From Zygnema cylindricum (lineage: Eukaryota; Streptophyta; Zygnematophyceae; Zygnematales; Zygnemataceae): a stretch of DNA of 64,000 nucleotides. Below the pieces are notes generated by a model. That model ran no database searches, was not told the origin of the DNA, and saw only the letters and a program-made list of their open reading frames with translations. Each line of letters begins with the position of its first letter. Position 1 is the first letter of the stretch. The translations under genes were made by a program, and so were the position numbers. The stretch lies in NCBI GenBank assembly GCA_037447655.1, contig JBBHKE010002761.1, forward strand, positions 22,260-86,259. The letters run 5' to 3'. This document shows, piece after piece, positions 1 to 36,828 of this stretch.

Positions 1-892
1 ATTACCAAAGCCATGGGCATCTCAGGAAAAAAAAGCAAAGCACGACAAGTTAGTTCTTCCAAGAATATGGTGTGAGACATTAGAGGCAAAGTCAAACTTG
101 TTGCTTTATGAATATTCCGACCGAGCAAGGGTGCTCGACCGAAGAGAATATAGTACGGGCTGAAATTAGCCAAGCTAGCCTGTACGGACATCCGGTATCC
201 CATGGTGATATAGCCCAATGATTTGTCTTAGACAGAGATGTGTTTCTCCAAACAATGCTTTTGGAGAGCAAGCTTAAAAGTATGGACAGCTCGTTCCGCC
301 AAGCCATCGGCTTATGGGTGATCACGACTCGTCGGGCGATAATCAATTAAACCTTCATCCAACATCTCTTGAAATTCCCCTGGAACTCCCAACCCTAGTC
401 CGTAAGAACCTCCGCAGAGGCTCCGTAACGCATGAGAACGTGCTCTTTAAAAGCAACACTGGTCAATTTAGTGGTCTTGTGGGGAAGAGCAACCACCTCT
501 ACCCACTTGCTAAAATTTTCTATCATAATCATAATGTATTGTTTCCCCTTTCGGGATAAGGGAATCGGTCCGGCGTGATCCACGAACTAGCGATAGAACA
601 ATCCTCTGATGGGCAATGGCTATAGAGACACTTGCCGATTAGAGAAAGAGGTACGTAACATATCGCATGTGGCGCATTTGTGAAGAATGGCCGCCATATC
701 CGCTTGCATTTCGGACCACCAATAGCGTGCTTCTACAAGGCTCAAAGTGCGCTTAGTCATGTATTGTCCGAGCTCTGTATGTTTCTGCTCAATCAAGGAC
801 AAACGCTCGATTGGCTGGGGGATATGCCGATGACTTCTGTCGTCAACAATCGAACTAAAGATCCGCCGAGCCACAAATAATTTTTGGCTCGT
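1..892 (-). pseudogene. Ty3/gypsy integrase, zinc-binding and core domains (broken)
   Basis: The element's integrase inserts the cDNA into host DNA. On the minus strand, 874-620 encodes the N-terminal zinc-binding region ending in HKCATC, with the typical spacing ahead of the core. 583-395 encodes the start of the core, with DHAGPIPLSRKGKQYIMIMI carrying the first catalytic Asp in its normal context. 346-1 holds the rest, including HPQADGLAER, the conserved segment around the third catalytic residue, in another frame. Several frameshifts and stops separate the pieces. One histidine of the zinc site appears replaced by Gln (HTELGQ). The domain is cut by the window edge. Confidence 0.85.
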
Positions 893-1633
893 TTTTTTAC
901 TCGGTCTTCCTCCTCAGCGGTAGTACCGGGCCTAAAGGTTTGAGAGGAGAGGAAGAGGATTAATGGGCCGTCGCGCCACGAATTTGTGGTCGGCCGACGG
1001 TGAGAAATAGAAAAGAGACAGTAAGTGATATAGGAACCAACCAACATGGCCATTACCTCGTCCTCGTCGAAATCTTGCCGGACCCCGTTATCGGTGGTCC
1101 GAGGTAGTGGATTCCGGGAAATCCCGTCGGCGTTCAAGCTTAACAAACCAGGCCGATGGATGATCTCAAACGTCGTACTCTTGTAAAATCAAAGCCCATC
1201 GGGCAAGCTTCCCTGAAATTTTATCATTGGTCATCAACCAATGAAGGGGTTGATGGTTAGTTAGGACCGTGAATGGCTTGCCGTAAAGATAATGTCGAAA
1301 ATGAACAATACCTCATACTGCGGCGAGACATTCACCCTCGTAACTACTGTAATTAGATTCAGCTCGGTTATTGCTCTGGCTGGCGTATACCACTACGTAT
1401 TCCTCTCTATTCAACTCTCTTTGCATTAAAATAGCCACAATGCCAGGCTTCCAAAAATACGTTTGTAGGCAAAAGGGAAGCTTGTTGTTAGGAGGTCGAA
1501 TAATGGGAGCGCTGGAAAGGGAGGTTTTCAGTTTTTGAAACGCTTCTACTTGGGCGGGTCCCCAAACAAAAAGCACTTCTTTTTTGAGAAGGTCGTTAAA
1601 GGGAGAAGTAATCGTACAAAAATTCAGTACAAA
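893..1633 (-). pseudogene. Ty3/gypsy RNase H and connection to integrase (broken)
   Basis: RNase H degrades the RNA of the RNA/DNA hybrid during reverse transcription. Minus-strand 1576-1313 encodes the start of the domain (PAQVEAFQKLK, then YASQSNNRAESNYSSYEGE, the usual SR.L..AE.NYS..E.E pattern). It continues in frame-shifted pieces through HYLYGKPFTVLTNHQPL and ends with the tether LSLNADGISR (usually N..ADALSR) near 1146. The first catalytic Asp segment is altered (QTYFWKPGIVAILMQ, where the family usually has QTDAS). The copy is non-functional. Confidence 0.85.
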
Positions 1634-2398
1634 TCAACAGTAATAATTGGCTAGTCTAAGAAAAGCCCTCAAACTAGTGAGATATGTAGGGGCTAGCAGT
1701 TTGGTGATAGCCTCTACCTTAGCTTCCAAGGGAGTGATGCCCTCAGCTGAAATAAAATGCCCGAGATAGGGCACTCCCTCTGCACCAAAAGTACACTTTG
1801 CTGGGTGACACTTCAGCCCGACTTTCTTTAACTCTGTGAGAACCCACTCAATATGACGGGCGTGCTCCTCCACCGTGGCGGAAGCGATTATCAAGTCATC
1901 AATGTAGCACCAAGCGAATTTTCATCCACCCAGCACTGAATCAATGACTTTCTGAAACATAGCGGGTGCGTTTTTAAGACCGAAGGCCATGACTGCCCAT
2001 TCCCGCCGACCATCACTACCCCAAAATGCAGTTTTATGTCGATCTCTTTCCTCGATTTCAATATGGTTATACCCTTGACGTAAGTCAAGAATGCTAAAAA
2101 ACTTCGCACCACCTACATGGTCAAATATTTCCTTCGCTAGAGGCATAGGGTGGCGGTCTTGAGCAGTCCGGGCATTGAGCTCTCGGTAGTCCCCACACAT
2201 TCTTCGCTCAGTAAAATTTCCGTTGAAATCTTTCTTCCTAGGCATGACTAAGGGGGCGTCAAAGGTGGAATCTGACCGATAGATTAGACCAGCTTCTTCC
2301 AATTCTGCGCATCTTTTGTCCACGATCTCCCATTCCATTTCAGAGAGACGATGTTTCAGCTTAAAGATAGGTCGATTGTCTTCAAGGTCGATTGACAT
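1634..2398 (-). pseudogene. Ty3/gypsy reverse transcriptase
   Basis: RNA-dependent DNA polymerase of the gypsy element. Minus 2398-1922 is open for 158 codons and covers fingers and palm: PLVMPRKKD, CGDYRELN, FSILDLRQGYNHIEI (motif A Asp) and GLKNAPAMFQ. A TGA at 1922-1924 interrupts the frame. After it, at 1895-1906, is YIDD, the catalytic metal-binding motif, in the same frame. The thumb follows (KCHPAKCTFG, PYLGHFIS) to LANYY, where a further stop falls exactly where the family has Arg (CGA to TGA). The order relative to RNase H and integrase is normal. Confidence 0.92.
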
Positions 2399-2860: not shown

Positions 2861-3710
2861 AAAGACTAGTCTTTGATGATGGTGTGTGATCCCCCCCTAA
2901 TTGATTGCGACGGATGATTATTTGTGTACCGACCAGCTGCTAGACCCAGACCTAAAACAAATGACAAGAAATGAGGGTCCATGACTCTACCTAGCAGTGT
3001 GCACCTCTTTCGTTCTGTAAGGCCGATGGCAGCAATAGTGCCAATTATAAAATGCATTAGATGCTCCCTCTCTGTGGCAGTAAGCTCCTCTAACTTCCGT
3101 GTGACAGTGTTTTGGAGCATGCCTAAACCAGTATGCGAGTATGCGTGTCAATTAGGATAAGAAACCAAGGAAGGAATGAACTTCGGTGGTTGACCGACTA
3201 CATTGTTGTGGTAGTTAGGAGGATAGTCTGGGAAGACGCATGTTAAGACTTGGTGAAAGGGAAGCAAGGTGGTCTTAATGTCTACAATGGGAGGTCTTAT
3301 GGACAGATTAGCCTCACGAAGACGACCGACATCGATTAGGTTCGTCCATTTGGAGCGAACTCAATGAGCCAGTGACCCATGCCGAGCGGCATCAATTATT
3401 AAAGGCGGTCCAATTAGGTGTTCAATATGCTTATAATCAGCCAAAACCACGGGCAATGGATCATTATAAGCGAACACGTTTTCCAAAATATATTCGACAG
3501 GCCGGTCTTTAGTTTGGAGAAAATCAAGGATCCTGAGAAGTTCAAAAAATAATTTTGTACGGTGATCCGCCAAACAAAGACTTTTGCAAGCTCGAGACAT
3601 GCCTTAGCACTCCCACCCCTCGAAAACAAGGTTTATCTGCTCCACATCCCATAGGTGGTGGTTACTAAGGATGGGGATGTCTTGTGGAAGGGTCGTGTGC
3701 ATATGCAAAT
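2861..3710 (-). pseudogene. C5-cytosine DNA methyltransferase, C-terminal part (motifs IV-X), inside gypsy element
   Basis: This half carries the catalytic and target-recognition side of a C5-cytosine methyltransferase. Read on the minus strand: motif IV as GWEC with the candidate catalytic Cys at 3607-3609, then a TAA at 3604-3606 where a Gln (WECQ) would be expected, then SRACKSLCLADHRTKLFF. Next come motif VI as ILENV (ENV codons at 3475-3483), then GPPLIIDAARHGSLAH and a motif VIII-like VRSKWTNL interrupted by TGA at the Arg. Last is a motif IX/X-like block, TATEREHLMHFIIGTIAA then LTERKRCTLLGRVMD (3120-2866). The WEC(Q) form differs from the common PCQ motif. The N-terminal half lies beyond the nested copia element. 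Three stops make this copy inactive. Confidence 0.82.
3706..3710. repeat. Target-site duplication of element A (left copy)
   Basis: CAAAT directly before the LTR start TGTTGATATT; the partner copy is at 7989-7993, overlapping the CA that would end the LTR. Deleting the element and one copy rejoins the methyltransferase frame. Confidence 0.65.
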
Positions 3711-4883
3711 TGTTGATATTTGAGTATTTTCTAGGTCTTTATAGAAAAAGAGCAAATGCAGTCTGTCCCTGACTCCCTTCTCTAAGCCCCCACACTTGTT
3801 GTAGTCACTGAAGGCTTGATAGGGAGCTAAAGCCATGGCTGCTAATCCTCACTAGATAAGACATGGGGTGGATTAGATATATACTAAAAGTTAATTGACG
3901 GGCCCAGGAATTGATCTTAGTACCTGCCGTCCATCAATTTCATTTAGACGTTAGCTCTAACAGTTAGGCATAGGATACATATTAGTATGTATAGGATTAG
4001 ATAAATATATAAATTGTCACAGGTAGATTAATTGGTTTAACAGCGAATAGATACTTAGTGCATCGATACAGTTTGATTTAGTAGGCAGTACGGTACGCGG
4101 AGAGAACGGATACCGCGCATTTGTTTCAATAGGGAAACAAATACTGCGCGTCGAAGTTCAGCGGCTAGGATTATAGCCGGTTTTGATCGGACGGCCGCGA
4201 TAGGCGCCGCGATCACAGAAAAGGTACTTTTGGCGTTTTACGGTATTTGCCACGTCAGATGACACGTGGCGTGATAACATTAGATTACGGGAATTTCGAA
4301 GATTACAGGAACTAATCCTGAATTGACGCGTGTCGACATTTTGGCCATGTCGTACAATGGCCGTACAGAAAGTACACCGGCACCTGTACTTTTCTGTACA
4401 ACACAAAAAATCGATTGGTGTCGTACTTCAGTAGATAGAGTTTTAGAGAGGGAATAGGACTTAGAAATTTTTTGGTAAGAAGCTACCTCTCCCAGAGAGC
4501 ACCTTCAATAAATAGCAAACTTTGGCCAGCCATAACAATAAATTTACTTGACCATTTTCAGTGATTCTTTTTGCTTCGGACTCAAGGTAGTCCACGCTAC
4601 ACAGGGGTGTAGTCGGTGAGAGTATTTTGTCTGCCAGGGTGGTTGCATTTCTAAGGGAAAGTCAAAGTGGGTGAATGTGTCCAAATCTCATATTCTAACT
4701 TTGCATTCTGTGGTGGAACTGAGCACAGAAAAAGTGTTATTTCACAAGGGTGAATCTATATTGGGGTTCTGACTGTCAAGGGGTCAGTCACTTGGGTTTA
4801 TATTAACTTGGAGTCGGCACTATCTAGATTACCTTCTTTTGGATCTGCATACTCTGGGGGCCAATGGAGGTCTTACAGTTTCA
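3711..4883 (+). repeat. 5' LTR of copia element A
   Basis: Starts TGTTGATATTTGAG and ends TTTCA immediately before the primer-binding site. It matches 6903-7990 along its length and is related to the LTRs of element B. It includes the conserved hairpin at about 3898-3940, a degenerate TATA region near 4507, and the Gag start codon at 4864. Confidence 0.9.
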
Positions 4884-4896
4884 GGTTATGGGCCCA
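4884..4896 (+). promoter_or_regulatory. Primer-binding site, anticodon arm of initiator tRNA-Met (element A)
   Basis: GGTTATGGGCCCA lies directly after the LTR. Its core GTTATGGGCCCA is the complement of the anticodon region TGGGCCCATAAC of eukaryotic initiator tRNA-Met, as for Drosophila copia, which uses a cleaved 5' half of that tRNA as primer. Confidence 0.75.
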
Positions 4897-5690
4897 CCAT
4901 CTAGTGTGCCTATGTTCGATGGAACATACTTCAGTTATTGGGAGTTTACAATGGCGGGATTGCTTTTCGAGAAGCACTTATGGGGAATTACTTTGGGACA
5001 ATTGAGATGTCCGCCACCTAGCATTGGAGGAGCTTACTATGGAGATTCATCTGAGGCTGCCCAGAATATCAACCGGAGTTCAGTTGCAACGGAAGGTGAA
5101 GGGAAAAATCTTTCCGTGGATGGGGAAATAGGGGAGAAGGAAAAAGGGACACCTATGTTGAGGGGAGCTAGGCTCTCAGCTATGGTACCACATGTAGGGA
5201 TTAAAACTGAAGAAAATGACAGGAAAATATGAGAATACAAAAACACTATAGCAAAACATCTCATACTTAGATATGTGTCTAAGTCGATAGCTATCACTCT
5301 TTTAAGTCTAACCAAGTCTTCACAGATATGGGAAGCACTAATTCAGATTTATAAGAGTGAGACTATTTAAAGGCAGCAATTAGTAAAACAGGAAATAGAG
5401 GCCTACGTTTATAAAGGCGGTAGCATGATAGAGTTTTGCAATGATATTGCTACGTATATGTTGAGCTTACTAGTGCGGGATATGTAGAATCTGAGGAGAG
5501 TAAGATTAATACACTAATTATGAAACTCCCAGATGAGTAGGAAAACATCATTTGTCATATGTAGGCAATGGATGGCTCCTCATGGACTTGGAGCTTTACC
5601 ATGGGGATAATTCTTGTGAGGGAAAGCACTTTGGAGTTTCGTAGGGGAAGGGACAGGATCAATGCATTTTCAGCTAGTGGTGATTGGCGG

Positions 5691-5802
5691 AAGCGTGATG
5701 AGAGGAACGGGGGTGACGAGCGAAAGCGTGATGAGAGAAACGGTGGTGACAAGTGCAAGCATGATGAGAGGAACGGTGGTGACGAGCGAGAGCGTGATGA
5801 GA
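5691..5802 (+). repeat. 33-bp tandem repeat in Gag of element A
   Basis: About three and a half copies of a 33-bp unit encode KRDERNGGDER-like segments just ahead of the zinc knuckle. The unit is a multiple of three and keeps the frame. Element B has a shorter version near 32400-32460. Confidence 0.85.
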
Positions 5803-6245
5803 GAAAGAAAGACAAAGGTAAACCTTATCCGAACTTTGGTGGAAAGAGAGGGAGAGGAAAAGAAAGGGGAGATTTGAAAAAGGGGGTTTGCTTCTTTTGT
5901 AGGGAACCGGGTCATTATATGGAGGAATGCCCTTGTTTGGAAAAACTTAGAAGTTGGAATGTGGATGAGGAGGAAGAAGGGGAAGAGGAGAAAGAGGATG
6001 AAGATATTTTAGAGCTTTTCCGGATTAGTAGTAGGGGGAAGAGAGAAAAGCACACAGTAATTGCACGAAGGCAACAGTGTGCTTTTGGAGGTATAAGGGA
6101 AGTAAAGAGAGAGGAGGTACTTGAGGATGTCGAGGAGTATAGATTGTATGACTTAGAAATGAGAAAGTCAGTTCTAGGATCCATAAGTGAAAACGGGAAA
6201 GATAAAATTAATGAGGATAATTTTTTTGATAATAGGGAAACATAA

Positions 6246-6770
6246 AACTGGTCGGAAAGGGAGACTTCAACGGATTCCGAGGAAAGGGGAGAAGTGAAAC
6301 TCGAAGAGGTTTTAAAGGTTAGGGGAGAAGAGAAATATTTGATTAAAGGTTTAGGGGAGAAGAAATATTTATTGGGAATTAAATTAGAAAGTAATAGTGG
6401 AAAGAATTCCATGGGAGAGAGTGAGGGAAGTTCAGAAAATGGGGTAATTATCATGGATAAAAACATGAGTACGAAAGATGTAGATCTTATGAGGAACTTA
6501 GTGGGGACTAGTGTTTTTGGGGAATATTTGGGGGTGGATGGATTTGACATCACTACTTGGTGTGATGTCACTTGTGAAGATGTGCCTGTAAAAGGGTTAT
6601 CATCCGGATATGTGTTGTAGGTAGGGGATGGGGCTGACTATTGGATATGCAAAGGGGAAAGTAGATTCTGGTTGAATGAAAAACAGAGGAGGTGGATAAA
6701 ATCTTTGATCGGATTTATGATAAGTGAGGTGCTAAATGAAATGTGTGATGCAATTATTATTTCAGTTCAT
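6246..6770 (+). pseudogene. Remnant of copia Pol C-terminus in element A
   Basis: After Gag, the interior keeps short stretches resembling the RT/RNase H end of element G: KYLLGIKLES (KYILGIQVEK in G) at about 6352, and DGFDITTWCDVTCEDVPVK then SSGYVL at 6536-6617 (ITTWSDASYGNAPMRRCTS then YVLY in D). The polymerase palm, integrase and protease are missing. This indicates an internal deletion of a full-length ancestor. Confidence 0.65.
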
Positions 6771-6902
6771 CTAATGCATTGTTTTAAATACGAGAGTATT
6801 TTTCTTAAGTTTTATAAAAGGAAAAGAAAAAGGAAATAGGGGAAGGAGTGTTTGTTTATTTGTTTGTAAGAGTTGAAAAAGTAGACTAGAAAATAAAGGG
6901 AG

Positions 6903-7990
6903 TGTTGATATTTGAGTATTTTCTAGGTCTTTATAGAAAAAGAGCAAAGGCAGTCTGTCCCTGACTCCCTTCTCCAAGCCCCCACACTTGTTGTAGTCAC
7001 TGAAGGCTTGATAGGGAGCTAGAGCCATGGTTGCCTAATGCTCACTAGAGAAGACATGGGGTGGATTAGATATATACTAAAAGTTAATTGACGGACCCAA
7101 GAATTGATCTTGGTACCTGCCGTCCGTTAATTTCATTTAGACGTTAGCTCTAACCGTTAGGCGTAGGATACATATTAATATGTATTTCATTTGATAAATA
7201 TATAAATTGTCACATGTAGATTAATTCGTTTAACGTCGAATATATACTTAGTGCATCGAATTTCAGCGGCTTGCATTATAGCCGGTTTTGATCGGACGGC
7301 CGCGATAGGCGCCGCGATCACAGAAAAGGTACTTTTGGCGTTTTACGGTATTTGCCACGTCAGATGACACGTGGCGTGATAACATTGGATTACGGGAATT
7401 TCAGAGATTACATGAACTAATCTTGATTTGACGCGTGTCGACATTTTGGCCATGTCGTACAATGGCCGTACAGAAAGTACACCGGCACCAGTACTTTTCT
7501 GTACGTCACACTAATTTGATAGGTGTCGTACTTTAGTAGATAGAGTTTTAGAGAGGGAATATGACTTAGAAATTTTTTAGTAAGTAGCTGCCTCTCCCAG
7601 AGAGCACCTTGTATAAATGGCAAACTTTGGCCAGCCATAACAATAAATTTACTTGACCATTTTCAGTGATTCTTTTTGTTGCAGACTCAAGGGAGTCCAC
7701 GCTACGCATGTGTGTAGTAGGTCAGAGTTTTTTGTCTGCCACGGTGGCTGCATTTCTAAGGGAAAGTCAAAGTGGGTGAATGTGTCCAAATCTCATATTC
7801 TAACTTTGCATTCTGTGGTGGAACTGAGCACACAAAAAGTGTTATTTCACAAGGGGGAATCTATATTAGGGTTCTAACTGTCAAGGGGAAAGTCACTTGG
7901 GTTTATATTAACTTGGAGTCGGCACTATCTAGATTAGCTTCTTTTGGATCTGCATACTCTAAGGGCCAATGGAGGTCTCAGAGTTTTACA
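6903..7990 (+). repeat. 3' LTR of copia element A
   Basis: Begins TGTTGATATT after the purine-rich tract AAAATAAAGGGAG (about 6890-6902), the expected polypurine tract. It matches 3711-4883 and ends GAGTTTTACA. Confidence 0.9.
7612..7618 (+). promoter_or_regulatory. LTR TATA box (element A, 3' LTR)
   Basis: TATAAAT follows a conserved CTCTCCCAGAGAGCAC segment. The same place in element B has TATAAAA (31208-31214 and 34222-34228). This is likely the core promoter of the LTR. Confidence 0.55.
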
Positions 7991-7993
7991 AAT

Positions 7994-8235
7994 AAGCAAA
8001 CTTTGGAAGCAGTTGTGGATACTGGGAATGTAAGAGATTGCAGTAATGGAATTGTGCCTTTTTAGCTATATCATCTATTTCCACTGTATAATAGTGACGA
8101 ATGAGAAGTCCATTCCGTAAACATCACTGTAGAGAAGTTTTGATCCCAGCAAATAAGTCTAAAATAATGACCCCGTTCGTATGAGGACTCAAATGTACAG
8201 GCTTCCAATTAATAGGGAGGAACCCCGAAGGATTG
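7994..8235 (-). pseudogene. C5-cytosine DNA methyltransferase, N-terminal part (motif I, SAM binding)
   Basis: Minus strand from about 8235: a lead-in NWKPVHLSPHTNG, then VIILDLFAGIKTSLQ with the DLFAG of SAM-binding motif I at about 8142-8163. A TGA follows, then HYYTVEIDDIAKKAQFHY, matching motif II (acidic residue that binds the SAM ribose) and the spacing of C5 methyltransferases. The reading continues to LLPKFAYL at the copia insertion point and resumes in the same frame at 3710 on the other side of element A. The N-terminal border with the protease region is unclear because of a frame change near 8230. Confidence 0.8.
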
Positions 8236-8870
8236 GTAGCTTCTGGAGGAATGGGAAGGTAGGTGTTAAATGTATAGGTAATGTAGACTTATAGATTTGG
8301 TCCAATGTGTCGGAATCGATAAGGAATCCCGGTTCGGCAAAGAGCTCGGGTAAGGGAGAACTATCTGGTATGATTTCTTCGGCCGAAAGAGAGAGGAAAA
8401 TTTCCTCCCCAACGGAGTTCCCCAAAAATGCGTGGAGAGCCGTAGCCGAGTGAGCCATAGTGGGCAAAGGTCGGCGGGTTGAAATGAGAGGGAGGCAGAT
8501 TTTGCGCTCCGGAAAGTGTGTCGGTGGGAAAGAAAATGTTTGGTCGTGCATGTCCACGCCACTGCCAATTTGGAATATAACGTCTTCACCCACCAAACAC
8601 TCATAGTCGTTACATTGAGTGACCAATGATCTGACGGAAATTTCAATGGACTTATTTTCGGTTCCTGTCTGAAACCAAAAGATGAGCGGGTCCTTTGTGG
8701 TTCCAAGGACCGGCTCCATGGTCCCAATCGAAGTAAGAAGGCAGGTAGCTGTCGCTTGAAGCTTGTTTGTTGTCAAACCAAGCTTGAGCGCAAATCCGGA
8801 TCTGAGCATCACGGGTTTGGCCCCGATGTCCATGAGAGGAAGAGTGGGGTGAACACCATTCAGTGAGAAT
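8236..8870 (-). pseudogene. Ty3/gypsy aspartic protease region
   Basis: The minus-strand frame open from 8833 begins MDIGAKPVMLRSGFALKLGL, which fits the flap-side start of a retropepsin-like domain (usually D-T/S-G-A). Here the middle residue is Ile, so the catalytic triad may be damaged. VTQCNDYECLVGEDVIFQIG follows (usually YDVLVG...VL...G), typical of this plant-type gypsy protease. The domain sits between gag and methyltransferase, as expected. The C-terminal 90 codons are not recognisable and may be linker. Protease identity is fairly sure, activity is not. Confidence 0.65.
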
Positions 8871-9049: not shown

Positions 9050-10849
9050 ATACTTAATCACTCCTTCACCCAATAAGCCTCATGAATAGTGCCATCCAAT
9101 ATGGTCAGTGCCTCCGCCGCGATGGTAGAAGTTGTTTTCGGTAGGGGAGGTAGAGACTCTATTGCAACTAAGAGTGGGACACGCGAATTTTGTAATTTGC
9201 CCACTCGGTTATGGTCTGCTAAGCCCATTTCAAATATAGCCATCCGTTGTTGGACGGTGGAATCCCGAAGGGTTCGCCCAGCCAACGACGGCATGTGGAC
9301 AACGGTCATCGCCATCCTAGTAAATCGGGGTTTCATTTCCGCCATGAAAGCTGCAAATTGCTCTTTCATCATGGCCCCCATTGTGGCTTGAAGCTCGGCC
9401 TTCTCTCTCTCTCTACGAGAGATCTTAGGAGGAGCTTCCTCCTTCTCGGTCTCCTTAGGCACAATAACTGGTTTTGCGGAACGGGCCGAAATTCCGCCGA
9501 TCTTTATCTGATTTTGATAAGTGAAATTAGGGTCCTTGATGTGGCATCGATAGACCTAATGTCCCCTTTGGTGGCAATGAGTGCAAGTGGTTGCCTTGTC
9601 AGGACACATGCGGGCATCCTGCTCAGTTTTTCAATATCGGAAACTTATTCGGTTTCCAGAACTAACGGGTGGAGTTCCCATGGTTGGCGTCTTTTGGGGC
9701 CTATTGGGGGGCCATGGGTTTTTAGGTGGAGGAGAAGATGGATTTGCGGGTTACCTGTGAGGAGGTTTGGACCGCTCATGGGCGTCCCACCACGATGTCT
9801 GCATCTAATACTCTACCGCATATTGAGCCGCTTGTTTAAAGGTGAATTTCAGTCCATACATCTGGCTGAGGTGGTTTTTGGATAAACCTCTTTGATGGAC
9901 CTTGAAACTGTCCCACAAATTTTTGGACAGCTTCCGCATCAGACATGAGGTCCGGTAATGCCTCTCGCAGAGTTTCAATCCGAGCTTGTAAGGCAAGAGC
10001 AGTTTCACTTGGCCTACGCTTGAAGTTCATCAACTCTTTGATCTAATCCGGTTTTTGCACCCGGTACTCCTCTTGGAGGATGTCAAACATGACCAAGAGA
10101 GGGTCACGCAGAGGGATGGTTCCCCCCGCTCTAGTTAGGACCGCCGCTCGGGCCGCCACTGCATACTAACGAGGAACCTCGAGGATAGCTAGATAGAACT
10201 CGTCCCGATAGCATCTAATACAGCCAGTCTCGCACCTTGATATGGGATATCCACTTGGCCGAAGACTTCTGGTAACCCCGCAAAAGGAGCCACATGCTTT
10301 GTCATCGAAAAAACATCCTCGTACTTGCGAGTGTAGAGAGTGAGGACTGAACCATGGAGGTATCGACCAAGAAGGGAAAAGACGACACGGGGGTCAAACC
10401 TATTCTGATATCTAAAGGCTAGATACCTCATTTCCGTGTCGTATAACATCCGGAAATGCGATAAGAAAATGGTGTCATTTAATCTGGAAAAGCAAAATTG
10501 CATCTTATCCATGGATCCCTCTAAAGTGGAAGCCATTTTGTAAAGATGAGGATGCGCTAGTTGTGCCAAAGCTCGGCTGGTAGGGAACCTACGAGTGTGA
10601 GGAGTTAGAAATGTTTCCTCCGGAAAGTCTTCTTCGGTCCCCTCTAGGAATGACCTAGATGAAACCAAGGATAATGATGACGTAGATGTCAGAGCATACT
10701 ACACTGACGGCGATCTGCGATCTGCAATCGGATCGGATGTGGTTAACGAATCGGGAAAATCCGAAGGATTTAATTGCGGAGGACGATAGAGTGTACCTCC
10801 TCGGGTGGACCCGGATAAATAATGAAGGTTATCCCAATCTGTGGGCATA
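9050..10849 (-). pseudogene. Ty3/gypsy Gag with CCHC zinc knuckle
   Basis: Likely start ATG at 10849 (MPTDWDNLHYL). Minus 10668-10189 is open for 159 codons and 10033-9805 encodes the typical Gag helix region FKRRPSETALALQARIETLR. A knuckle of C-x2-C-x4-H-x4-C spacing (CTHCHQRGH, stop, VYRC) is at about 9543-9587, with TAG where Gln is likely. The stretch 9462-9058 follows, rich in Lys/Glu (KETEKEEAPPKISRREREKA). Several stops and frame changes; order and spacing are normal for gag upstream of protease. Confidence 0.75.
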
Positions 10850-11284
10850 AACAAAGGGGTTCCCTAACTACAATAATGAAATGTTTCGCACGACCTAACC
10901 AAGATGCAACACGTGTCAGACCAATCCACTCGTCCAATCAACATACTTAGTCACTATAAAGACCCGATGGTCATATCTAGCAAGAAGCCGATTTACCAAA
11001 ACCTCTACCCTGCAAACAGTAGGCAACGCCAAAGGGCCAGATTTATATAAACAAGAAAATTGCTATCTAGGCACCCTAGGGTGCAGATCTACAACAACAC
11101 AGCCGGGAAAAGGTCTACAGAGTGCCACCCACGGCAAGATCTAGCAAGAAATCCCAATCGAGATAGTCACAAGAAATTCCAAGGCCACTCAGGGCCAGAT
11201 AGCATGCACGGAAAGCACCAAAATGCAAATGCTCAATAAGAAAGGTTCGCAATGGAACCACTCCACACCGATCCCCTACACGAG
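10850..11284 (-). other. Leader of the gypsy element, between LTR and gag
   Basis: No coding frame. Directly after the inferred LTR end, the minus strand reads CTCGTGTAGGGGATCG. This resembles the complement of a tRNA T-arm plus acceptor 3' strand and is the candidate primer-binding site, but the expected TGG is not cleanly placed. Confidence 0.4.
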
Positions 11285-13078
11285 TGTCCACACTAAATCG
11301 GAATGCTTATGCACCTGCAAGGCATCAGCTACTTACAGACACCTTTAGTGCTCTGGTGAGCACTAAGGGTGAACCGAACTTGTTCGAAGCAAGTCGGGTT
11401 TTGCAGAGCTCCCTGGGATAAAATTCGCTCCACGAAATTTTCTCCGAGCAGCGTCTCCAAAATAACCCTTCCCAAGACCCGTCCGTACCGTGAAGATGTA
11501 CGCCGTGGAATGTTAGGGGACCAATGGAAGGAAGGGAAGAAAGCGTTCGGTGGAAAAAAAATAAACAATAAGACACACAAATACGATAGATGGGAAAAGT
11601 GTGTTAGAATAAAGTAGGAGGCAGCTCAAACTCCAAATATACAGCCAAACTTGTGACCACAATAATCCAAAGCCAGCAGCCAACCCTAATTCCACTTGGA
11701 AAACCCTAATTCCAAAGCCAAACCCTAATTCTAGACGGCCAAGACTCCAAATCTGCAGCCAAAGAATAAAAGGATACCGACCTAAGGACTGGAATCAAAA
11801 GGAATAAACCCTAAATATGCTGCAACCCTAATTTTGCAGCCAAAACCCTAATTCTGCAGATAAACCCTAAATTTGATGCAAAATTTAGGTTTAACACTTA
11901 CTCCAATAAATATAGTGGCAGCAGAATAAGTGACAAAGATTGAAAGAAAAAAATAGCGGAAAACAAAAACAAAATGTTTTTTTTTTTTTCATAAAATAAA
12001 ATTTATAGTTTTAATATATATTTTTTTTTTTTTAGTTTCTTTTGGACAAGAATGCTAAGCCAAGAGGTAGCCACTAGGCTCTCTGGTCTTTATCGCATCC
12101 CCTACAAAATTTATCCCGTTTTGAGAGCAAAGCAAGAAATATTCCAACCGGAATAAGGGAAAATCCTATTCCGATCAAAAATACACTCCTTCCAAGCCAA
12201 CCGAAATACAAACAAGACACAAACACACGACCAAACCGTCAAGCTGCCCGAGGAAGGCATAGAAAGGTCCAAATGTGATCCCCCACGATCTCCAATTCCA
12301 CACTTTCACCCAAAAGACCAAGTTTGGAGGGAAACCTTCCGGACGTGGCCTTAGGCCGTGTGGATTAAAAACGTGGGCACAAATACAAGAGAAAATATTC
12401 GTAACCTATCTAGCCTCTATAGCTAGCTAGCAATAACAAATAAAAAGCATGAGCAATCGGTGAGAGAGAGAGCAAGAGAAAGCTCCGCAGCCAAGAGAAA
12501 ATTATTGTCCAAAAGTTAAATTCTCTAAGTATGAGAATTAGCCTTAGTAGGAACTAAGCTACGCCTAGCGCAAAACTAGCCAAAGTCTAACCTACTTTAC
12601 ATGAATGAAACTACTTAAGATGTTGGCCAATAGGCGGCCAACATCGTCCGCCGTACGTCTAACAAAATCCACCGTGCGAGGGTGAAAACCCTCCCTAACT
12701 ACATGTATGCGCGAACCTACATGGGTTCGCGACTTAAATGAATGAAGGGTATCGAAGCGTCTGTTGTACTCCCGAAAATCGGGCTTCATCACCAAACGAT
12801 ACTTCGCGTCCATACTCCAAAATCGTGTACCTACGCACAAAACGAAAAATATCGCACGAAATTAGTACACGTTCAAAGAAAACGTGCACGCAAATCGTGT
12901 ACACATCCCTAATGGATAAATTGACGATATCGCGCAGCAAAAATAAGCGTGCGTGCATGAAATCGTGATGCATGCAAAATACCGTGCGCCCGCGTCAAAT
13001 ACCGTGCGCGCGTGCTAAAAATCGTGCAAGCGTGCCCCATATCGCGCGTGCTAGCAACTGATACCATGCAGCATGACA
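11285..13078 (-). repeat. 5' LTR of the methyltransferase-bearing gypsy element
   Basis: Bounds are inferred from TG...CA ends (minus-strand start TGTCATGC at 13078, end GGACA at 11285) and from partial similarity to the 2.4-kb block 19161-21565, which begins TGTCATTT and ends ACGACA. Shared stretches include CTACGCCTAGCG (near 12570 and 20938) and the GGTTCGCGACTTAAA / GGTTCACGACTTAAA pair (12723 and 21107). The LTR contains several AAACCCTAATT telo-like motifs at 11690-11880. Length is 1.8 kb. The outer bound agrees with where the host exon breaks off. Confidence 0.6.
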
Positions 13079-15949: not shown

Positions 15950-17252
15950 TTGCAACACTTTAGTAATGCACGAACTAATAATGTGCTAATACTAATTATA
16001 CAGACAAAAAACTGTACCGATATTAATTGTACAGACTAATAACTATGTCAGCACAAGTTATACAGACTAATAACTGTACTAACTGATTACAAAGACTAAT
16101 TATTGTAGTAATACTGATTACACATACCAAAAACTGAATTAATACAAATCATATAGACTAATAACTCTACAGATACTGATTATATAATAATTGTCCTAAT
16201 GCTAATTATACAATACAAATAATTGCACTAACACTCATTATATAGACTAATAACTGTACTCATACTATAGCTGTAATAACACTTATTATACAAACTAAAA
16301 CTGTGCTACGACTAATTATACAAACTAATAATTGTTGTATCACTAATTATATAGACTAATAACGGTGTTACTACTAATTAAACATTATTAATAGCTGTAC
16401 TAACACTAATTATAGAGACTAATAATTGTATCAATACTAATTACACAGACTTCTTATTGTTTTAATACTAATTATAAAGACTAATAACTGAACCAATACT
16501 GATTATACAAACTACTAACTATAAAACACTAATTATACATACTAAAATCTGTACTAATACTTGTTATACAAATTCATAGCTATAATAATACTAATTTTAC
16601 AGAATAATAATTGTACCAAAACTAATGATACAAACCTATAATTGTAATCACACACTAATAGCTTTACTAATACTGATTATGCGTACTACTAGCTTTACTG
16701 AAAATGACAGTACAAAAACTGATTATATGTACTAATAGCTGGACTAATACAGATAATACACAAATAATTAGTATGAATATCTCGTATAAGTACAGCTATC
16801 AGTATGTATGATTATTGATTAGAACAATTGTTAGTTTGTATATTTAGTTTTAATAAAGTGCTTAACCTGCATATCTTGTATTAGTAAAGTGCTTAATCTG
16901 TATATTTAGTATTACTATCCTTTGTAACTGCATAATTAGGATTATTATAAGGATTAGTACAGTTATTAGTAATGTAGAATTAGTATTAGGACAGTTATTA
17001 GTAATGCAAAATTAGTAATAGTACAGTTATTAACAAGTATAATCAGTATTAGTACAATTATAAGTATGTTTAATAAGTATTAGCACAGCTATTAGTCTGT
17101 ATATTTAATATGAGTCAAGTTATGAGTTTGTATAATCAGTATTGGTACACTAATTAGTCGATGTAATTAGGATATATAGAGTTATTAGTCTGTATAGTTA
17201 GTGTTAGTACAATTATTAGTAATGTTTAATTAGTATTAGGACAGTCAATGTA
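15950..17252. repeat. AT-rich tandem repeat with central inversion
   Basis: From about 15950 to 16745 the plus strand repeats a degenerate unit of roughly 30 bp (ACTAATTATACAGACTAATA, AACTGTA). From about 16755 to 17252 the same unit appears as its reverse complement (TTAGTATTAGTACAGTTATT). The whole could fold back on itself. It ends in the assembly gap. Confidence 0.85.
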
Positions 17253-17262
17253 NNNNNNNNNN
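17253..17262. other. Assembly gap (10 N)
   Basis: Ten Ns at the end of the inverted tandem repeat, probably a placeholder gap caused by that repeat; true distance unknown. Confidence 0.99.
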
Positions 17263-21565: not shown

Positions 21566-22640
21566 CCTTACTTCCCTTCTTTAGTTCCATTGGAGTGGTA
21601 CAACTATTAGCCTTGTCCATTTGGAATATTTCTAACATGTTTCCAATGGCCTCCTTCTGAGTTCATCTAATTATCTTTCTATCTCTGTCTTTGTCTTCCT
21701 GAATTCCTTAAATATACTTTGCTTTGCCCATATCTTTCATCTCAAATCTACCTTTTAGATCCGTTTCAACTTATTTATTTTATCTATAGATTTACTTAAA
21801 ATAAGCAAATCACCAACATAAATTGCAATAAATATAATTCCTTCCTCATCTTCAAACAAATAAATTGAGTGATCTGAGCTGATCCGAATGTATCCCAAAC
21901 TTGTAAGAAACTCATCGAGCTACTTATTCCATTGCAAAGGCGCCTGTTTCAGCCAATACAAAGATTTGATCAATCGGCAAACCTTGCTTTCCTCCCCTTG
22001 CTCCACAAATTCTTCAGGCTATCCCATAAAGATCTCCTCTAACAACTCTCCATGTAGGAAGGCCGTCTTGATGTCCATTTGATGCAGTTCCATGTCTACT
22101 GCTGCTACCAAACTTAGAAGTATCCAGACGGAGGGAAACTTGACGACTGGGGCAAATGTCTCCCTCGTGGTTAATTCCCTCTTTCTAGTTAAACCCTTTC
22201 GCCTCTAACCAAGCCTTGTAGCGCTTAATGGTGTTATCCAGGTTGAGTTTCAATTAAAAAACCCATTTACACCCGATTGGCTTTCTGTCAACAGGACAGT
22301 CCATCAATACCCCTGTATCGGTTGCCATAATCGAAGCCATCTCCTCATTAATGGTTGTCTTCCACCGATTCCTCTCACGACAGTTCATCGCCTCACCATA
22401 GGTTTAGGTTCATTGGGGTGAGACAGTTTGGTTACCATGTTGTTAACTTGCTTCTCTTGTTGTCTTTTGTTGCTTTTCCTTCCACCGTCAAACTCAGATG
22501 CCGGAATGGATGGCTCTCGTGGATTCTTTCGAACAGTTTCGACTTCTCCCCTGTCCCTTAATTCCGAGTCTATTTCCACCACGTCTTCCGTTTCGGTTAG
22601 AGTAGGAACTAGGGGTTCCACGGCTGAATCCTCCTCGATC
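21566..22640 (-). pseudogene. Copia reverse transcriptase, N-terminal and central part, element D
   Basis: Minus-strand 22621-22385 gives the integrase-RT linker (ETEDVVEIDSELRDRGEVET, homologous to G). Next come the RT start RKPIGCKWVF and decayed fingers/palm in several frames, and at the end QKEAIGNMLE, FQMDKANSCTTPME. Many stops. It continues after the solo LTR into RNase H at 19160. Confidence 0.75.
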
Positions 22641-23860
22641 TGATTTGTACCTGCAAAATCATCATCTTCTTAGAAACCTGGATAGTTAGGAAGCTCAAAG
22701 TCATCAGAATTTTCTGACTCAAATCTGATTTTGACTTTTTTTGTATGCTTAAAAGGATCTTTAGATTTCCTTTCATCCATAACCACAAGATGCTTCACTA
22801 GGATTATATCTTCTCTCTTGAGATCATAGACTGAATATCTTTTTACATCTTCATCATATCCTAGTAGATATCATGGTTTTACTTTCGGATCTAACTTCCA
22901 ATTTGACCGATCTGTGTGTAGACTGAATACTTGACTGTCGAAAACCTTTAGGTGTGAAACATCTGGTTTTCGGCCGGTCCATCTCTCATAAGGTGTTTGG
23001 CCTTTTACTCCCGAAGTAAAAACTTTATTTCTTAAGATAGTTTGCACAGTTCATTGCTTCCACCCGAAATCTCTTTTCTATCTTTTTATCCAACATAATA
23101 CTCCTGCCACTATCACTTAGTGTCCTATTTAACCTCTCGGCTTCACCATTGTGCTCAAGATTTTCCAAGATTGTCTTTTGATGTTGCACTCCATCTTCTC
23201 TAAGAAAATCCTCAAACTGATAAGAGGTATACTCTCCCCCATTATCACTCCTTACTCTCTTAATTGTGGTTTCATGGAGTTTCTCACTCCACGCTTTATA
23301 TTCCTTAAAAATATGTGGAGCCTCTGATTTATTTTTTAAAAAATACACTCTAGAATACCGAGTCCAATTGTCAGTGATTGTCATCATAAACCTCTTACCC
23401 CGGGTAAAGGCACTTTGGCCGGTCCCCAAATATCAGTGTGTACCAAGTCTAAAACTTTTTCTCCATTATAAGTGGCTTCTTTTGGGAAGGGTAACCTGTG
23501 TGCCTTACCTTGAGCACAACCACTACAGTCACTTAGGTTTTCACTTTCTCCGAACTAAATTCCTTCCACTATTTCTATCTTTTTCATTTCTTTCAACTTA
23601 TCTAAATGCTCATGTCCAAGCCTCTTATGCCACAACATAATATCATGAACACCAATATAGTAAAGTTTCTTCTTTTTATTGCTTAGAATCAGCCTAAACA
23701 TCCCTTGGCTACCCTTTTCAGCAGTGAAATAAACTTCCTCCTTAAAGCTAGCAGTAAAGGTTCCCTTCCTAGTGCTAGTGTCAAAACCCTTATCATCAAA
23801 CACAGACGTTGAGATGAGGTTTTTGTTTGACTCTGGAATAAACAACACAGGTTTTTGTTT
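22641..23860 (-). pseudogene. Copia integrase, element D
   Basis: Minus 23848-23555 holds the GAG-pre-integrase segment WHKRLGHEHLDKLKEMKK with a zinc-site His, then the CSGCAQGKAHRL-type region. 23429-23025 holds the core (GKRFMMTITDNWTRYSRVYF, RVRSDNGGEYTS with catalytic Asp) up to NCANYLKK. The C-terminal part (WTGRKPDVSHLKVF, GYDEDVKRYSVYDLKRED) continues to about 22700. In the first Asp segment the expected HTDIWGP is disturbed by frame changes. Confidence 0.85.
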
Positions 23861-23881
23861 GACTCTGGAATAAACAACACA
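23817..23881. repeat. 32-bp tandem duplication in Pol of element D
   Basis: GGTTTTTGTTTGACTCTGGA followed by ATAAACAACACA occurs twice in a row. A 32-bp duplication shifts the frame just upstream of the integrase segment; element G has one copy. Confidence 0.9.
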
Positions 23882-24320
23882 TCACAGAATGTCACTATGG
23901 ATGTCTTTCCCTCCACTAAGATTTTTAGATCTACCGATCTTACCAAAGTAGTGGTGACTACCGTCCCATCCCCATACTCTATCTCTACGATGGGATCTTT
24001 CTCATCATAGTGAACAGATGCTTGTCCTTACACATGTGCATGGAAGCACTTGAATCCACAATCCAACCTCTTTCACTTTTCAAACCTCCGAAAGCACATA
24101 TTAGCTTTCGAGGAATTTTGACCTCGGTCTTCGCCTCTAACTCCTCATCCAACAAAAGCTCATCGTCCTCGTCCTCAGATTCCTCCTCATGTACTTGTAC
24201 CACAAGAGCCTTTTTCATTCCTCTTCGAGGTCCACCCATCTGCCCCTCCTTTAACCAAATCTCGGTTAGCTTGGTGCACTCCGCCATATAGTGCCCTGGT
24301 TTGTTCCAAAAATGACACAA
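23882..24320 (-). pseudogene. Copia zinc knuckle and protease, element D
   Basis: Minus 24320-23985: CHFWNKPGHYMAEC is a CCHC knuckle whose second Cys is Trp. An acidic stretch SEDEDDELLLDEELEAK follows, then GWIVDSSASMHMC, the protease active site, where the usual DSG is DSS. Both key sites are altered, so neither is likely to work. Confidence 0.85.
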
Positions 24321-25215
24321 TCCCTTAGGAGCCCTCGATCCAAACTCATCGGTGTGATATTTTTGCCCCCCCCCCCTCCATATTTTCCGACCGGTTTTTT
24401 GGAATCCATGTTCCTCTTATCGGTCCCTGCTGACAAGGCTTGCCCACTCTTTCCTCCCCTTCGAATCTCAATCGTATTCTCCCAAACGAGAATCATCCCT
24501 TCCACTTAATTATATTTTAACCTTAAGTCTAGCAAGTCCTGCACACGGTTGACTATATTTTCGAACTCATCTGGTAACCTCATGAGCAAGCAGTTTACCT
24601 TTTTTTTTCAGTTTCCACTTTTCCAGCACTCTCTAGCTCCATGAAAAGTGTTGCGAGCTCATTACAAAAATCCAACATTTTCCCCCCTTTGTATACATAT
24701 GCATTAATTTTTTGATCAGCCAACTGCTGTTGGTGAATAGTACCACTTCGGTACATCTCTATAAAAGCCAGCCAAAGATCAAATGCCCTATCTACATGCA
24801 AATGAGTAGATGCAAGTCCTTGAGTAAGATGACAGAGGATGAAGGGCTTTGACGCCATATTGTTGTAGTCCCAGGTATCACTATCATTCTCCTAGTTCCT
24901 CGGAATATGTGACATGAATGCTGAACCGGTTGCTATAGGTGTGATCGTCTCATTCCCTTTTCCTTTGTCCACCACCTCCCCTTCCTTTCTCTCATCTGTT
25001 GGAGATCGATCTGCATCTCTGGTGAGTTTTCTTCCTACAAACCCTGGAGACGTGCCATGACTGGATGGACACCTCACCCGTCCACTCACTATTCCCCAAA
25101 ACCTTTTCTCACATAGAGCTCCTCTCATCATTCTCTCCCAATATATGAATCTAGTTCCATTAAAGATGGGCACTTTAGAGGGTGGGCCCATAACTTGCAA
25201 TTCAGAGACATCCAT
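24321..25215 (-). pseudogene. Copia Gag, element D
   Basis: The start codon at 25215 lies in the 5' LTR and the frame crosses the primer-binding site (MDVSELQVMGPPSK), then IFNGTRFIYWERMMR. 24858-24595 encodes the central helices (FDLWLAFIEMYRSGTIHQQQ, FCNELATLFMELESAGK) and 24505-24321 the basic tail (ILVWENTIEIRRGG). Stops and frame changes occur between the pieces. Confidence 0.8.
25183..25195 (-). promoter_or_regulatory. Primer-binding site of element D
   Basis: Minus strand AGTTATGGGCCCA directly after the LTR end TTGCA; same anticodon-arm initiator tRNA-Met match as in the other copia elements. Confidence 0.75.
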
Positions 25216-26004
25216 AGGTCCTCAAAATAAGCAGCTCACAAGATGCCCCTAGGATAACCCTGAGCCTTTTGTGTTTCAACAAGAAAAACTGCCACCATGG
25301 TAAACAAATACTATGAACACCTTCACCCTTGTGAAGACAAGACTCCTTTGAGTCGATAGCGAAAATTATCTCTTAATTTGCTCCCTTGAGCAGTGAGTTA
25401 TGAAGGGTCAAAGTTGACCTTTTGTACAAGAGCACTCTGGGAGAGAGGCGGCTACCTCCCAATTTTTCTAAGTCTTAGATCCCTCTCTAAACGCTCAACT
25501 TCTAATGTACGGCACCAATCAAAATGCTTTGACGTACAGAAAGGTGCAGGTGGCGAAGTACTTTCTGTACGGCCATCGTACAGCATGGCCAAAATGTCGA
25601 CCCTTGCCATATCCGGATTTGCTCCCATATTCTCCGAAGATGCCGCAAGCCAATGAGGATGTGCCACGTGTCACTTGACGTGGCGGTGACAAAAAACTGC
25701 CAAAACGCCTACTCGACGATCCCGGCTCCTATCGAGGCCGTTTGATCAAAACCGGCTTCTAATTATAGCCATCGAAATCAAATGGGTTGTATTTGTTTTG
25801 CCGACGAAACAAATGCGCGGTATTTGTTTCGGGAGGTAATGTAAGCCGTACATATGCTATAACTCTGTCTATACGGCTTAAGTGAATTCACGCCGTTAAA
25901 TGAATTTATCTTCGAGTACATCTTTATACATGTAACTAACCCTACATTCCTCAGGACTAATCTTAGACTAATACTATAAAGCTAACGGCTATCGGCGAAC
26001 TTGA
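25196..26004 (-). repeat. 5' LTR of element D, truncated by element C
   Basis: Matches 17341-18403 up to GGCGAACTTGA, then stops abruptly at the first base of the LTR of element C. About 260 bp of LTR start are missing. Confidence 0.85.
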
Positions 26005-32700: not shown

Positions 32701-33300
32701 AGAAATTCAACGAAAGCAACAATGTGCTTTTGGAGGTATAAGGGAAGTAAAGAGAGAAGAGGTACTTGAGGATGTCAAGGAGTATAGAGTGTATGACTTA
32801 GAGATGAGAAATTCAGATCTAGGGTCCATGAGTGAAAAAGGGAAAAATATAATTATTGAGGATATTTTTATATATATTTTGGAAACACAAAACTGGTCAG
32901 AAGGGGAGACTACAACGGATTCCGAGGAAAGGGGAGAAGTAAATCTAGAGGGGTTTTTAAAGGATAGAGGAGAAGAATAATATTTTATGAAAGGTTTAGG
33001 GGAGGAGAAATATTTTTTGGGAATAAAAATAGAAAGTGATAGTGGAAAGAAATCGATGGGAGAGAGTGAGGAAAGTTCAATTTTTGGGGGTAATGGGTTT
33101 GACAACACTAAAGGGAGTGATGGCATTTATGAAGGTGTGCCTCTAAAAGGGTTAGCATCTGGGTGTGTGTTGCATATTGGAGATGGGGCTGGCTGTTTAA
33201 ATTGCAAGAGGGAAATAAGATGTAGTGTGGATAGAAAAGAGATGTGGATTACATCTTGGCTCGAATTTATATAAAGTGGGATGCTAAATAAAATGTGTGA
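32701..33300 (+). pseudogene. Pol C-terminal remnant of element B
   Basis: Frames at 32987-33274 include KYFFLGIKIESDSGK and YEGVPLKGLASGCVLHIGDG, collinear with the remnant in A and with the RT/RNase H end of G. Protease, integrase and RT core are absent. Confidence 0.55.
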
Positions 33301-33460
33301 TGCAATTATTATATCGGTTCATCTAATGCACCGTTGTAAATACGAGATTATTTCTCTTAAGTTTATGAAAGGAAAAAGAAAAAGAAAAAAGGAGGGGAGC
33401 GGGTTTTTGTTTATTTGTTTGTGGGAGTTGAAAGGAAAACAAACAAGAAAATAACGGGAG

Positions 33461-36815: not shown

Positions 36816-36828
36816 CGTTATGGGCCCA
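36816..36828 (+). promoter_or_regulatory. Primer-binding site of element G
   Basis: CGTTATGGGCCCA, anticodon-arm initiator tRNA-Met type, after the LTR end TTTCA. Confidence 0.75.

Follow-up and report, generated by a model that had tools for sequence, protein, structure and literature searches.

In many eukaryotes, transposons are silenced by DNA methylation, which raises a question for any retroelement that seems to encode the enzyme writing that mark: is the methyltransferase a regular component of the element or just a neighbour, and what could the element do with it? The case considered here comes from a 64,000-nt stretch of the genome of Zygnema cylindricum (hereafter, the window). On its minus strand lies a decayed, dead Ty3/gypsy copy with a Dnmt3-type C5-cytosine methyltransferase (MTase) between its protease (PR) and its reverse transcriptase (RT).

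The gag, PR, RT, RNase H (RH) and integrase (IN) of this copy are collinear (Table 1), and all the MTase motifs that the initial annotation had quoted as lying on one strand, collinear with the gypsy domains, could be located on the minus strand: motif I (ILDLFAGI) at about 8165-8142, motif IV (GWEC) at about 3618-3607 and followed by an in-frame stop, ILENV at 3489-3475, VRSKWTNL at 3360-3337 and GTIAA...LLGRVMD at 3042-2977. The two separate coordinate ranges proposed there for the enzyme were also right, the pieces being separated by a nested 4.28-kb Copia-like element with repeats at 3711-4881 and about 6903-7986, flanked by a CAAAT target duplication (3706-3710 and 7989-7993). The best PDB match of the RT is the Ty3 RT (4.6e-66). 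The protease ORF has no Pfam match of its own, and in open copies both Asp_protease_2 (17.7 bits) and zf-CCHC (18.6 bits, in L015) stay below the cut-off. The outer terminus of the 5' repeat, at 13078, reads TGTCATG, and 11 nt of the primer-site-like stretch following this repeat show perfect complementarity to a site within A1 that lies about 461 nt short of the A1 end. The element runs past the end of the window, its PHD region and B1 being found in L051. Neither Rfam nor a tRNA scan gave any match in the window.

Table 1. Features of the gypsy-Dnmt3 copy and of the element nested in it (window positions)
Feature	Position	Strand	Basis
5' repeat A1 of gypsy-Dnmt3 element	12055..13078	-	blastn pieces vs A1 of copy C449, 70-80%
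Primer-site-like stretch after A1, ATTCTTGTCCAAAAG	12039..12053	-	sequence reading
gag, broken frames	9766..10851	-	tblastn to C1344 gag, 36% over 391 columns, E 3e-52
CCHC zinc-knuckle remnant	about 9540..9590	-	by eye
Aspartic protease region and linker	8192..8833	-	ORF; DIGA vs DTGA in open copy
Methyltransferase part A, motif I, one in-frame stop	7989..8231	-	
Nested Copia-like LTR element interrupting methyltransferase	3711..7988	+	direct repeats, ends read
Methyltransferase part B, motifs IV, VI, VIII, X, three in-frame stops	2899..3710	-	
Reverse transcriptase and RNase H	1169..2398	-	RVT_1 2.1e-27, RT_RNaseH 3.3e-29
Integrase, H2C2 and rve	6..850	-	Pfam; tblastn 75-78% to C1344 IN

The similarity to the DNA methylase profile PF00145 that the initial annotation expected holds for the family, but not for the window copy taken by itself. 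Part B, with its stops read as X, reaches 18.4 bits (E 0.0016) against a cut-off of 22 bits, and part A matches nothing in Pfam or, up to E 10, in the PDB, whereas open copies of the family are significant (45.9 bits for the open copy C1344 of family E and 51.6 bits for the best copies of family P). The weak match of the window copy is nonetheless not due to chance, given that all 17 distinct PDB sequences retrieved with part B by phmmer at E up to 1 are DNMT3A, 3B or 3C (best 0.0016), and that the same genome holds 145 matches to part B (142 of them scored, from 1608 candidates, the window included), forming the two families E and P. The best of the other genomic copies share 79% identity with part B; a search of part B against 5.8 billion proteins yielded 978 candidates, none of them at E 0.001. 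As a separate observation, a limited search revealed no host Dnmt3 gene; L007 has, by eye, the look of an exon from a host MTase belonging to a different class.

Could a host Dnmt3 gene or pseudogene have ended up between gypsy fragments by chance? The stops, frame changes and weak PF00145 score of the window copy, considered alone, would fit such an origin, which is nevertheless left with practically no probability by the number of genomic matches, by the collinear RT found downstream of the MTase in 28 of the 32 E loci and 13 of the 15 P loci, by the recurrence of the PR-MTase-RT order in an unrelated contig and, decisively, by C1344. This copy, of 10.6 kb, encodes gag-CCHC-PR-MTase-RT-RH-IN-PHD in a single open frame of 2395 aa, whose integrase, following RH, matches H2C2 (1.6e-15) and rve (4.3e-12), RVT_1 and RT_RNaseH being matched too. 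Its repeats A1 and A2 are 100% identical over 931 nt and TTGG flanks it on both sides; it is a recent insertion. Among the E loci, PR lies upstream of the MTase in 26/32, and PR, MTase and RT follow each other on the same strand in 24/32 (two duplicate loci having been dropped from this count). The placement of the MTase within the gypsy Pol, between PR and RT, put forward from the window alone, is borne out by these loci and by the frame of C1344. The MTase recurs in related copies, of which at least one is young and intact, and this shows it to be a standing component of the element rather than something that lies beside it by accident. The element combines a Ty3-type RT/RNase H and the PR-RT-RH-IN order, including a DDE integrase, with an MTase inserted between PR and RT.

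Regarding the enzyme itself, its profile matches DNMT3A (E 2.6e-18) better than HaeIII (3.1e-8), DRM2 (2.5e-6) or DNMT1 (0.05), and the 50 Foldseek matches listed for a predicted structure (pLDDT 63, pTM 0.70) are all DNMT3 entries; among C5-MTases of known structure, DNMT3 is the closest. The motifs follow the linear order I-IV-VI-VIII-X. Median dN/dS values of 0.235 in family E (16/91 pairs usable) and 0.251 in family P (14/28 pairs usable), about 0.24 overall, show the intact MTases to be under purifying selection. The median for the RT over all E pairs is 0.27 (13/66 usable). A comparison of RT and MTase on shared pairs had two usable E pairs and one usable P pair, too few to be informative.

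All 44 aligned retro-MTases retain the catalytic Cys as well as the glutamate of motif VI, and the motif IV dipeptide is PC in family P and EC in family E. In relatives from elsewhere, the catalytic-loop Pro is replaced by Glu (10) or Asp (1) in 11 of 37 sequences, and the four E sequences aligned are of the Glu type; the PCQ-to-ECQ change is recurrent. These replacements might be taken as a sign that the domain methylates RNA or is a non-catalytic, nucleic-acid-binding part of Pol, a role that would also suit its occurrence at two Pol positions, each adjoining RT/RH (in other Pol proteins, the MTase is located between RNase H and integrase). However, neither the catalytic Cys nor the motif VI glutamate has been lost in any aligned sequence and the nearest family is one of DNA methyltransferases, and we consider this alternative improbable.

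The ends of the element depart from the Ty3/gypsy layout. Instead of plain LTRs at both ends, C1344 and C449 show the repeat order A-ORF-B-A-B, with TGTC...GACA ends, in two subfamilies whose repeat sequences are unlike. The B|A stretch has 42 matches, of which 37 span the junction; there, the palindrome GACA-GC-TGTC is kept in C1344, C1407 and C449. Right after A1, a perfect self-complement of 18 nt in C1344 and 15 nt in C449, different in sequence, finds its target 475 nt and 467 nt, respectively, before the A end, and none of 456 control stretches equals the self-complement length in either copy. The primer site of C1848 keeps 15/18 positions, with no significant perfect match. In C1407, A2 is similar to A over the first 705 nt only and no 5' repeat was found; the stretches examined did not reveal left ends for C1307, C2310 or C1407, and the 8.2-kb contig L065 showed no repeats.

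Is this repeat order the product of circle-based integration, or did neighbouring copies recombine? Chimeras do exist: C1848, which shares 87% identity with C1344 in its 5' repeat but 100% in its B|A part, is likely one, and C449 may be another, because its A1 and A2 are 80% alike but its B1 and B2 96%. A target duplication is clean in C1344 only, since the flanks of C449 and C1848 match at 3/4 bases and GC follows their outer GACA, as at the inner junction. Still, recombination seems an unlikely source of an order that occurs in two subfamilies with unlike repeats, that in C1344 comes with identical A repeats and matching flanks, that preserves the junction palindrome in three copies and that has also been published for Klebsormidium (PMC5890265).

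We lean slightly towards an explanation that joins these observations, namely a Dnmt3/PHD gypsy lineage with self-primed reverse transcription and circle-based integration, whose MTase marks its own cDNA; the repeat mismatch of C449 and the GC after the outer GACA lower our confidence in it a little. Also weighing against it are the Glu that family E has in place of the conserved Pro before the catalytic Cys, the undepleted CpG of open E copies and the negative yeast result for the KnitGypsy-Dnmt3 domain (PMC5890265). The RNA of the element would start about 470 nt before the A end, and its own 5' end would act as the primer for reverse transcription at the complementary site that directly follows A1. 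The plus strand would be started from the G-run preceding B, and the product would be a linear BA-ORF-BA molecule whose ends would join to form the A2|B2 joint seen in the copies. The junction palindrome suggests that the DDE integrase acts on this circular intermediate: the other GACA-GC-TGTC palindrome would be where the integrase opens the circle, which it would then insert with a 4-bp duplication. Foamy virus and HIV-1 are known cases of integrases that cut palindromic circle junctions (PMC1180852, PMC1905944). The MTase, made within Pol, would most likely methylate the cDNA either ahead of integration or during it, and a new copy would thus already be marked on entering chromatin; the PHD finger would guide either integration or methylation according to the histone state.

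The same marking could instead be a self-limiting device by which new copies are exposed to host silencing, with less harm to the host, an option raised by the authors of PMC5890265. The selection that keeps the MTase is compatible with it, and so is the CHG observed/expected ratio, lower in decayed E copies (0.74-0.89) than in open ones (0.97-1.31), as would fit methylated old copies mutating, for the few loci available and with no significance test. Nevertheless, a self-silencing element should lose to copies lacking the activity, and this reading is rather unlikely. As for CpG, the observed/expected ratios are 0.82-0.94 in open E copies, 0.64-0.67 in P copies and 0.73 in the window, and depletion as a trace of self-methylation is absent in the open E copies.

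Beyond this genome, 14 protein relatives were found by profile search (profile A1) and 29 by region search with the open copy, including P0009 from Closterium sp. NIES-53 (38% identity) and P0019 from a eukaryote transcriptome; none is named Klebsormidium, most matches being unnamed. No relative of part B, the RT or P0022 was found in viral contigs. The Pfam matches of the elements include no tyrosine recombinase, the rve integrase being present instead. The position between PR and RT is common to the two families and the unrelated contig.

How does the element relate to known systems? Plain LTRs are found in Tf1/Sushi and Tcn1, and REM1 of Chlamydomonas, also Ty3/gypsy, has both a chromodomain and a PHD finger, in a reverse-strand ORF; unlike in REM1, the PHD finger here stands at the Pol end, alongside the MTase. 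The Tf1/Sushi and Tcn1 chromoviruses are self-priming and carry a chromodomain (PMC6317226), in contrast to the PHD finger and split repeats of the present element. Ngaro retrotransposons share the A-pol-B-A-B repeat order, but they have a tyrosine recombinase and neither protease nor DDE integrase (PMC3783388), both of which are present here. Retrotransposon MTases were mentioned in the initial annotation for dinoflagellates and Klebsormidium; SymbioDIRS-Dnmt3 and KnitGypsy-Dnmt3 are both described in PMC5890265. SymbioDIRS-Dnmt3, from Symbiodinium, has a Dnmt3 in Pol and A-coding-B-A-B repeats and methylates CG in yeast, but uses a tyrosine recombinase, unlike the DDE integrase (H2C2, rve) and Ty3-type RT found here. 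KnitGypsy-Dnmt3, from Klebsormidium nitens (de Mendoza 2018), is of the kind seen here as far as its published description goes, with an intron-free Dnmt3 in the gypsy Pol frame, under purifying selection, and DIRS-like repeats; its domain gave no methylation in yeast, a result its authors deem inconclusive (PMC5890265). A gypsy-borne Dnmt3 with DIRS-like repeats is already published, and the novelty suspected in the initial annotation holds only in part. The PHD finger and the two MTase positions, as well as the PCQ-to-ECQ change, were not found in print for gypsy-Dnmt3 elements in the accessible part of the open-access literature, and the words PHD, protease and rve do not occur in the main text of PMC5890265. 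A self-primer and a junction palindrome were not seen for KnitGypsy-Dnmt3 in the parts of that article examined. A 2025 paper by related authors mentions Copia and DIRS elements with DNMT3 (PMC12344493).

More tentatively, and with some doubt, these elements might form a separate retroelement class, Ty3-type and self-primed by the 5' end of their RNA, with a DDE integrase that acts on a circular intermediate at a palindromic site within the repeat, in convergence with the tyrosine-recombinase DIRS/Ngaro elements, and with both a PHD reader and a Dnmt3 writer; if so, each new copy could select the chromatin it enters and set an epigenetic mark of its own. The relatives elsewhere, with the MTase at two Pol positions, show a lineage and not the oddity of one alga, and the split repeats, DDE integrase and junction palindrome suggest that circle integration may also have evolved among Ty3-type elements. 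Because this large family, in which at least one insertion is recent, keeps a Dnmt3 of its own under selection beside a histone-reading finger, it allows tests of why a parasite would write the silencing mark.

Taken by itself, the window carries a marginal methyltransferase (MTase) signal: part B of the split domain scores 18.4 bits against Pfam PF00145, below the cut-off, and finds DNMT3 enzymes only (17 of 17) in a phmmer search of the PDB, and part A has no match in the Pfam or PDB searches. It is the copies in the rest of the genome that settle the matter. In the same assembly (353 Mb, 2689 contigs), part B has at least 145 matches, counting the window (142 scored of 1608 candidates), and PF00145 at least 123 (123 scored of 782 candidates), the latter including one or more host-type exons such as L007; both totals are lower bounds. 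Two genome searches provided 50 loci, of which 47 remain after removing two duplicates (L031 and L033, of L015 and L016) and setting aside L007: 32 belong to family E, that of the window (GWECQG), and 15 to family P (GWPCQGY), the two being ~42% identical. A same-strand RT follows the MTase in 28/32 E and 13/15 P loci, and an E-like protease precedes it in 26/32 E loci and 0/15 P loci; by eye, P loci L006 and L020 show another protease (DTGA) upstream. Locus L007 (G000:C514) contains a C5-methyltransferase exon, GGPPCQGASGHNRF, unlike the retroelement MTases, and is probably a host gene.

The open E copy on contig C1344 (85514-96154, spanning L052, L015 and L053) has, with frames checked, a single frame of 2395 aa running from gag through the whole of Pol. 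Pfam recognizes in it PF00145 (6.7e-12), RVT_1, RNase H (7e-35), H2C2 (1.6e-15), rve (4.3e-12) and a PHD finger (4.5e-10); the zinc knuckle and protease score below their cut-offs, and gag has no Pfam match. The initial annotation had placed a C5-MTase inside a Ty3/gypsy element, between protease and RT, which is borne out by this copy and the collinear E loci; the PF00145 similarity it expected is significant in the open copy but not in the window. In family P, copy C1374 likewise has a PHD-like finger at its end (39% identity over 46 columns, 1e-5).

The window copy is dead, owing to stops, frame changes, the nested insert and an additional break of ~1.3 kb in its PHD region. Past the edge of the window, locus L051 contains this region and one B repeat; no A-like repeat turned up there.

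Components of the gypsy element in the window and of its nested insert
Feature	Position	Strand	Remarks
Repeat A1, start of element	13078-12055	minus	
gag	10851-9766	minus	
Zinc-knuckle remnant	between gag and protease	minus	
Protease	8833-8192	minus	
MTase part A	8231-7989	minus	
Copia-like element splitting parts A and B	3711-7988		two long repeats, CAAAT both sides
MTase part B	3710-2899	minus	
RT/RNase H	2398-1169	minus	
Integrase	850-6	minus	

The nested Copia-like element contains a 33-nt tandem repeat as well as an ORF resembling gag, and a related element (81-86%; own end repeats 88% alike) occupies 30446-34595. Elsewhere, the window contains a 4.3-kb inverted pair, 79% identical (21566-25829 and 36187-40409), an ORF resembling by eye Copia protease and integrase (37865-38824), a minisatellite with ~113 copies of a 17-nt unit (50522-52417), CCCT and TCCCTC tracts (55404-57238), and an assembly gap of ten N (17253-17262) adjoining an array of 31-nt repeats, some of them inverted (15974-17245).

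Regarding the enzyme, a profile of 14 intact MTase domains retrieves DNMT3A (2.6e-18) and DNMT3B (4e-16) from the PDB ahead of all other C5-MTases scored, namely HaeIII (3.1e-8), HhaI (9e-7), DRM2 (2.5e-6), DNMT2 (3e-6) and DNMT1 (0.05). In a Foldseek search with an AlphaFold2 model (pLDDT 63, pTM 0.70), the 50 matches listed of 743 are all DNMT3 entries. Median dN/dS (NG86; domains without stops and of at least 230 residues) is 0.235 in family E (14 loci, 91 pairs, 16 with dS 0.05-1.5, leaving out 68 saturated and 7 with dS <=0.05) and 0.251 in family P (8 loci, 28 pairs, 14 usable). The catalytic Cys is present in 44/44 aligned sequences (without rows <240 residues and P0001, P0012, P0013 and P0014), and the preceding Pro is replaced by Glu or Asp in 11/37 proteins from elsewhere and in all four E sequences aligned.

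Two protein searches yielded 14 and 29 proteins, mainly unnamed and from sources labelled ena, jgi or lgn, which we take to be metagenomes; one carries the name Closterium sp. NIES-53 and another comes from eukprot. A Pfam scan of ten long Pol proteins selected from the 29 finds a PHD finger downstream of integrase in all ten and PF00145 between RNase H and H2C2 in nine; for the tenth, P0033, Pfam calls no PF00145, but our own profile puts the MTase at that position too. Since E and P have it between protease and RT instead, two layouts exist: PR-MTase-RT (I; E, P and, with protease adjoining the MTase, P0003, P0005 and P0015) and RT-RH-MTase-IN-PHD (II; 25 proteins by the rule applied, several being fragments), with P0031, P0032 and P0043 left out of the assignment. 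Layout I, with long open frames in the order PR-MTase-RT-RH-IN-PHD, also appears in L065 (CADCWO010000201.1), binned as Synechococcales (MTase 42% identical; RT, RH and IN 53-60%); it has a single in-frame stop between MTase and RT, a search for repeats found none, and it is probably a mis-binned eukaryotic contig contaminating that cyanobacterial assembly. An RT tree of 23 rows sets layout II apart as one side of a branch (100/98) and recovers E (99/97) and P (100/100). The MTase tree (45 rows) recovers E with P0003 (99/96), P (99/98) and a clade with 23/25 layout II rows (88/85), on a weak backbone with several long branches, and requires two changes for layout II and three for layout I. These trees are compatible with a single capture and a later shift inside Pol, and equally with two captures whose sources were related.

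The C1344 copy reads A1 (931 nt), ORF, G-run, B1 (242 nt), GC, A2 (100% identical to A1) and B2, with outer ends TGTC...GACA flanked by TTGG on either side. C449 shares this order, the G-run motif before B1 and GACA-GC-TGTC at B1|A2, although its A and B have almost no DNA similarity to those of C1344; its B1/B2 are 96% alike, A1/A2 only 80%, and its flanks are TCAT/GCAT. C1407 has the same junction and a GACA end, its A2 matches A over 705 nt only, and no 5' repeat was found. GACA ends also occur in C1848 and C1307, the exact end being less certain in C449 and C1848 because GC follows the outer GACA. Genome-wide, 37/42 matches to the B|A stretch span the junction (40 scored of 360 candidates).

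Right after A1, C1344 has an 18-nt stretch and C449 a 15-nt stretch of different sequence, each complementary to a site within A (475 and 467 nt upstream of the A end, respectively); 0/456 control stretches match as well in either copy. The window copy retains 11 nt of complement (site 461 nt before the A end); C1848 retains 15/18 positions, counted by eye, its best perfect match being 8 nt elsewhere, not above control (61/456). The simplest reading would be self-priming like that documented in Tf1/Sushi and Tcn1 elements (PMC6317226). Priming after A, together with the G-run before B, would give a BA-ORF-BA cDNA, unlike integrated copies, in which A comes first and B last; if the two ends of this cDNA were joined, the A2|B2 joint would arise, and a cut at the other B|A palindrome would generate the observed ends. 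We infer this joining-and-cutting step; foamy virus and HIV-1 integrases cleave such palindromes (PMC1180852, PMC1905944).

The placement of the MTase had been annotated as possibly new; a gypsy-Dnmt3 element whose repeats are DIRS-like has already been published (PMC5890265), but layouts I and II are apparently new. So, as far as seen, are the self-complementary primer site and the junction palindrome, the ECQ variant and the PHD finger, as well as the abundance of these elements, including a fresh open copy, in another genome (353 Mb). The CpG observed/expected ratio, 0.82-0.94 for open E copies, 0.64-0.67 for two P copies and 0.73 for the window, argues against a strong effect at CG; for CHG, decayed E copies have lower values than open ones (few loci, without significance test). 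Most likely, the MTase would methylate the element's own cDNA, the role also proposed for Symbiodinium DIRS elements (PMC5890265).
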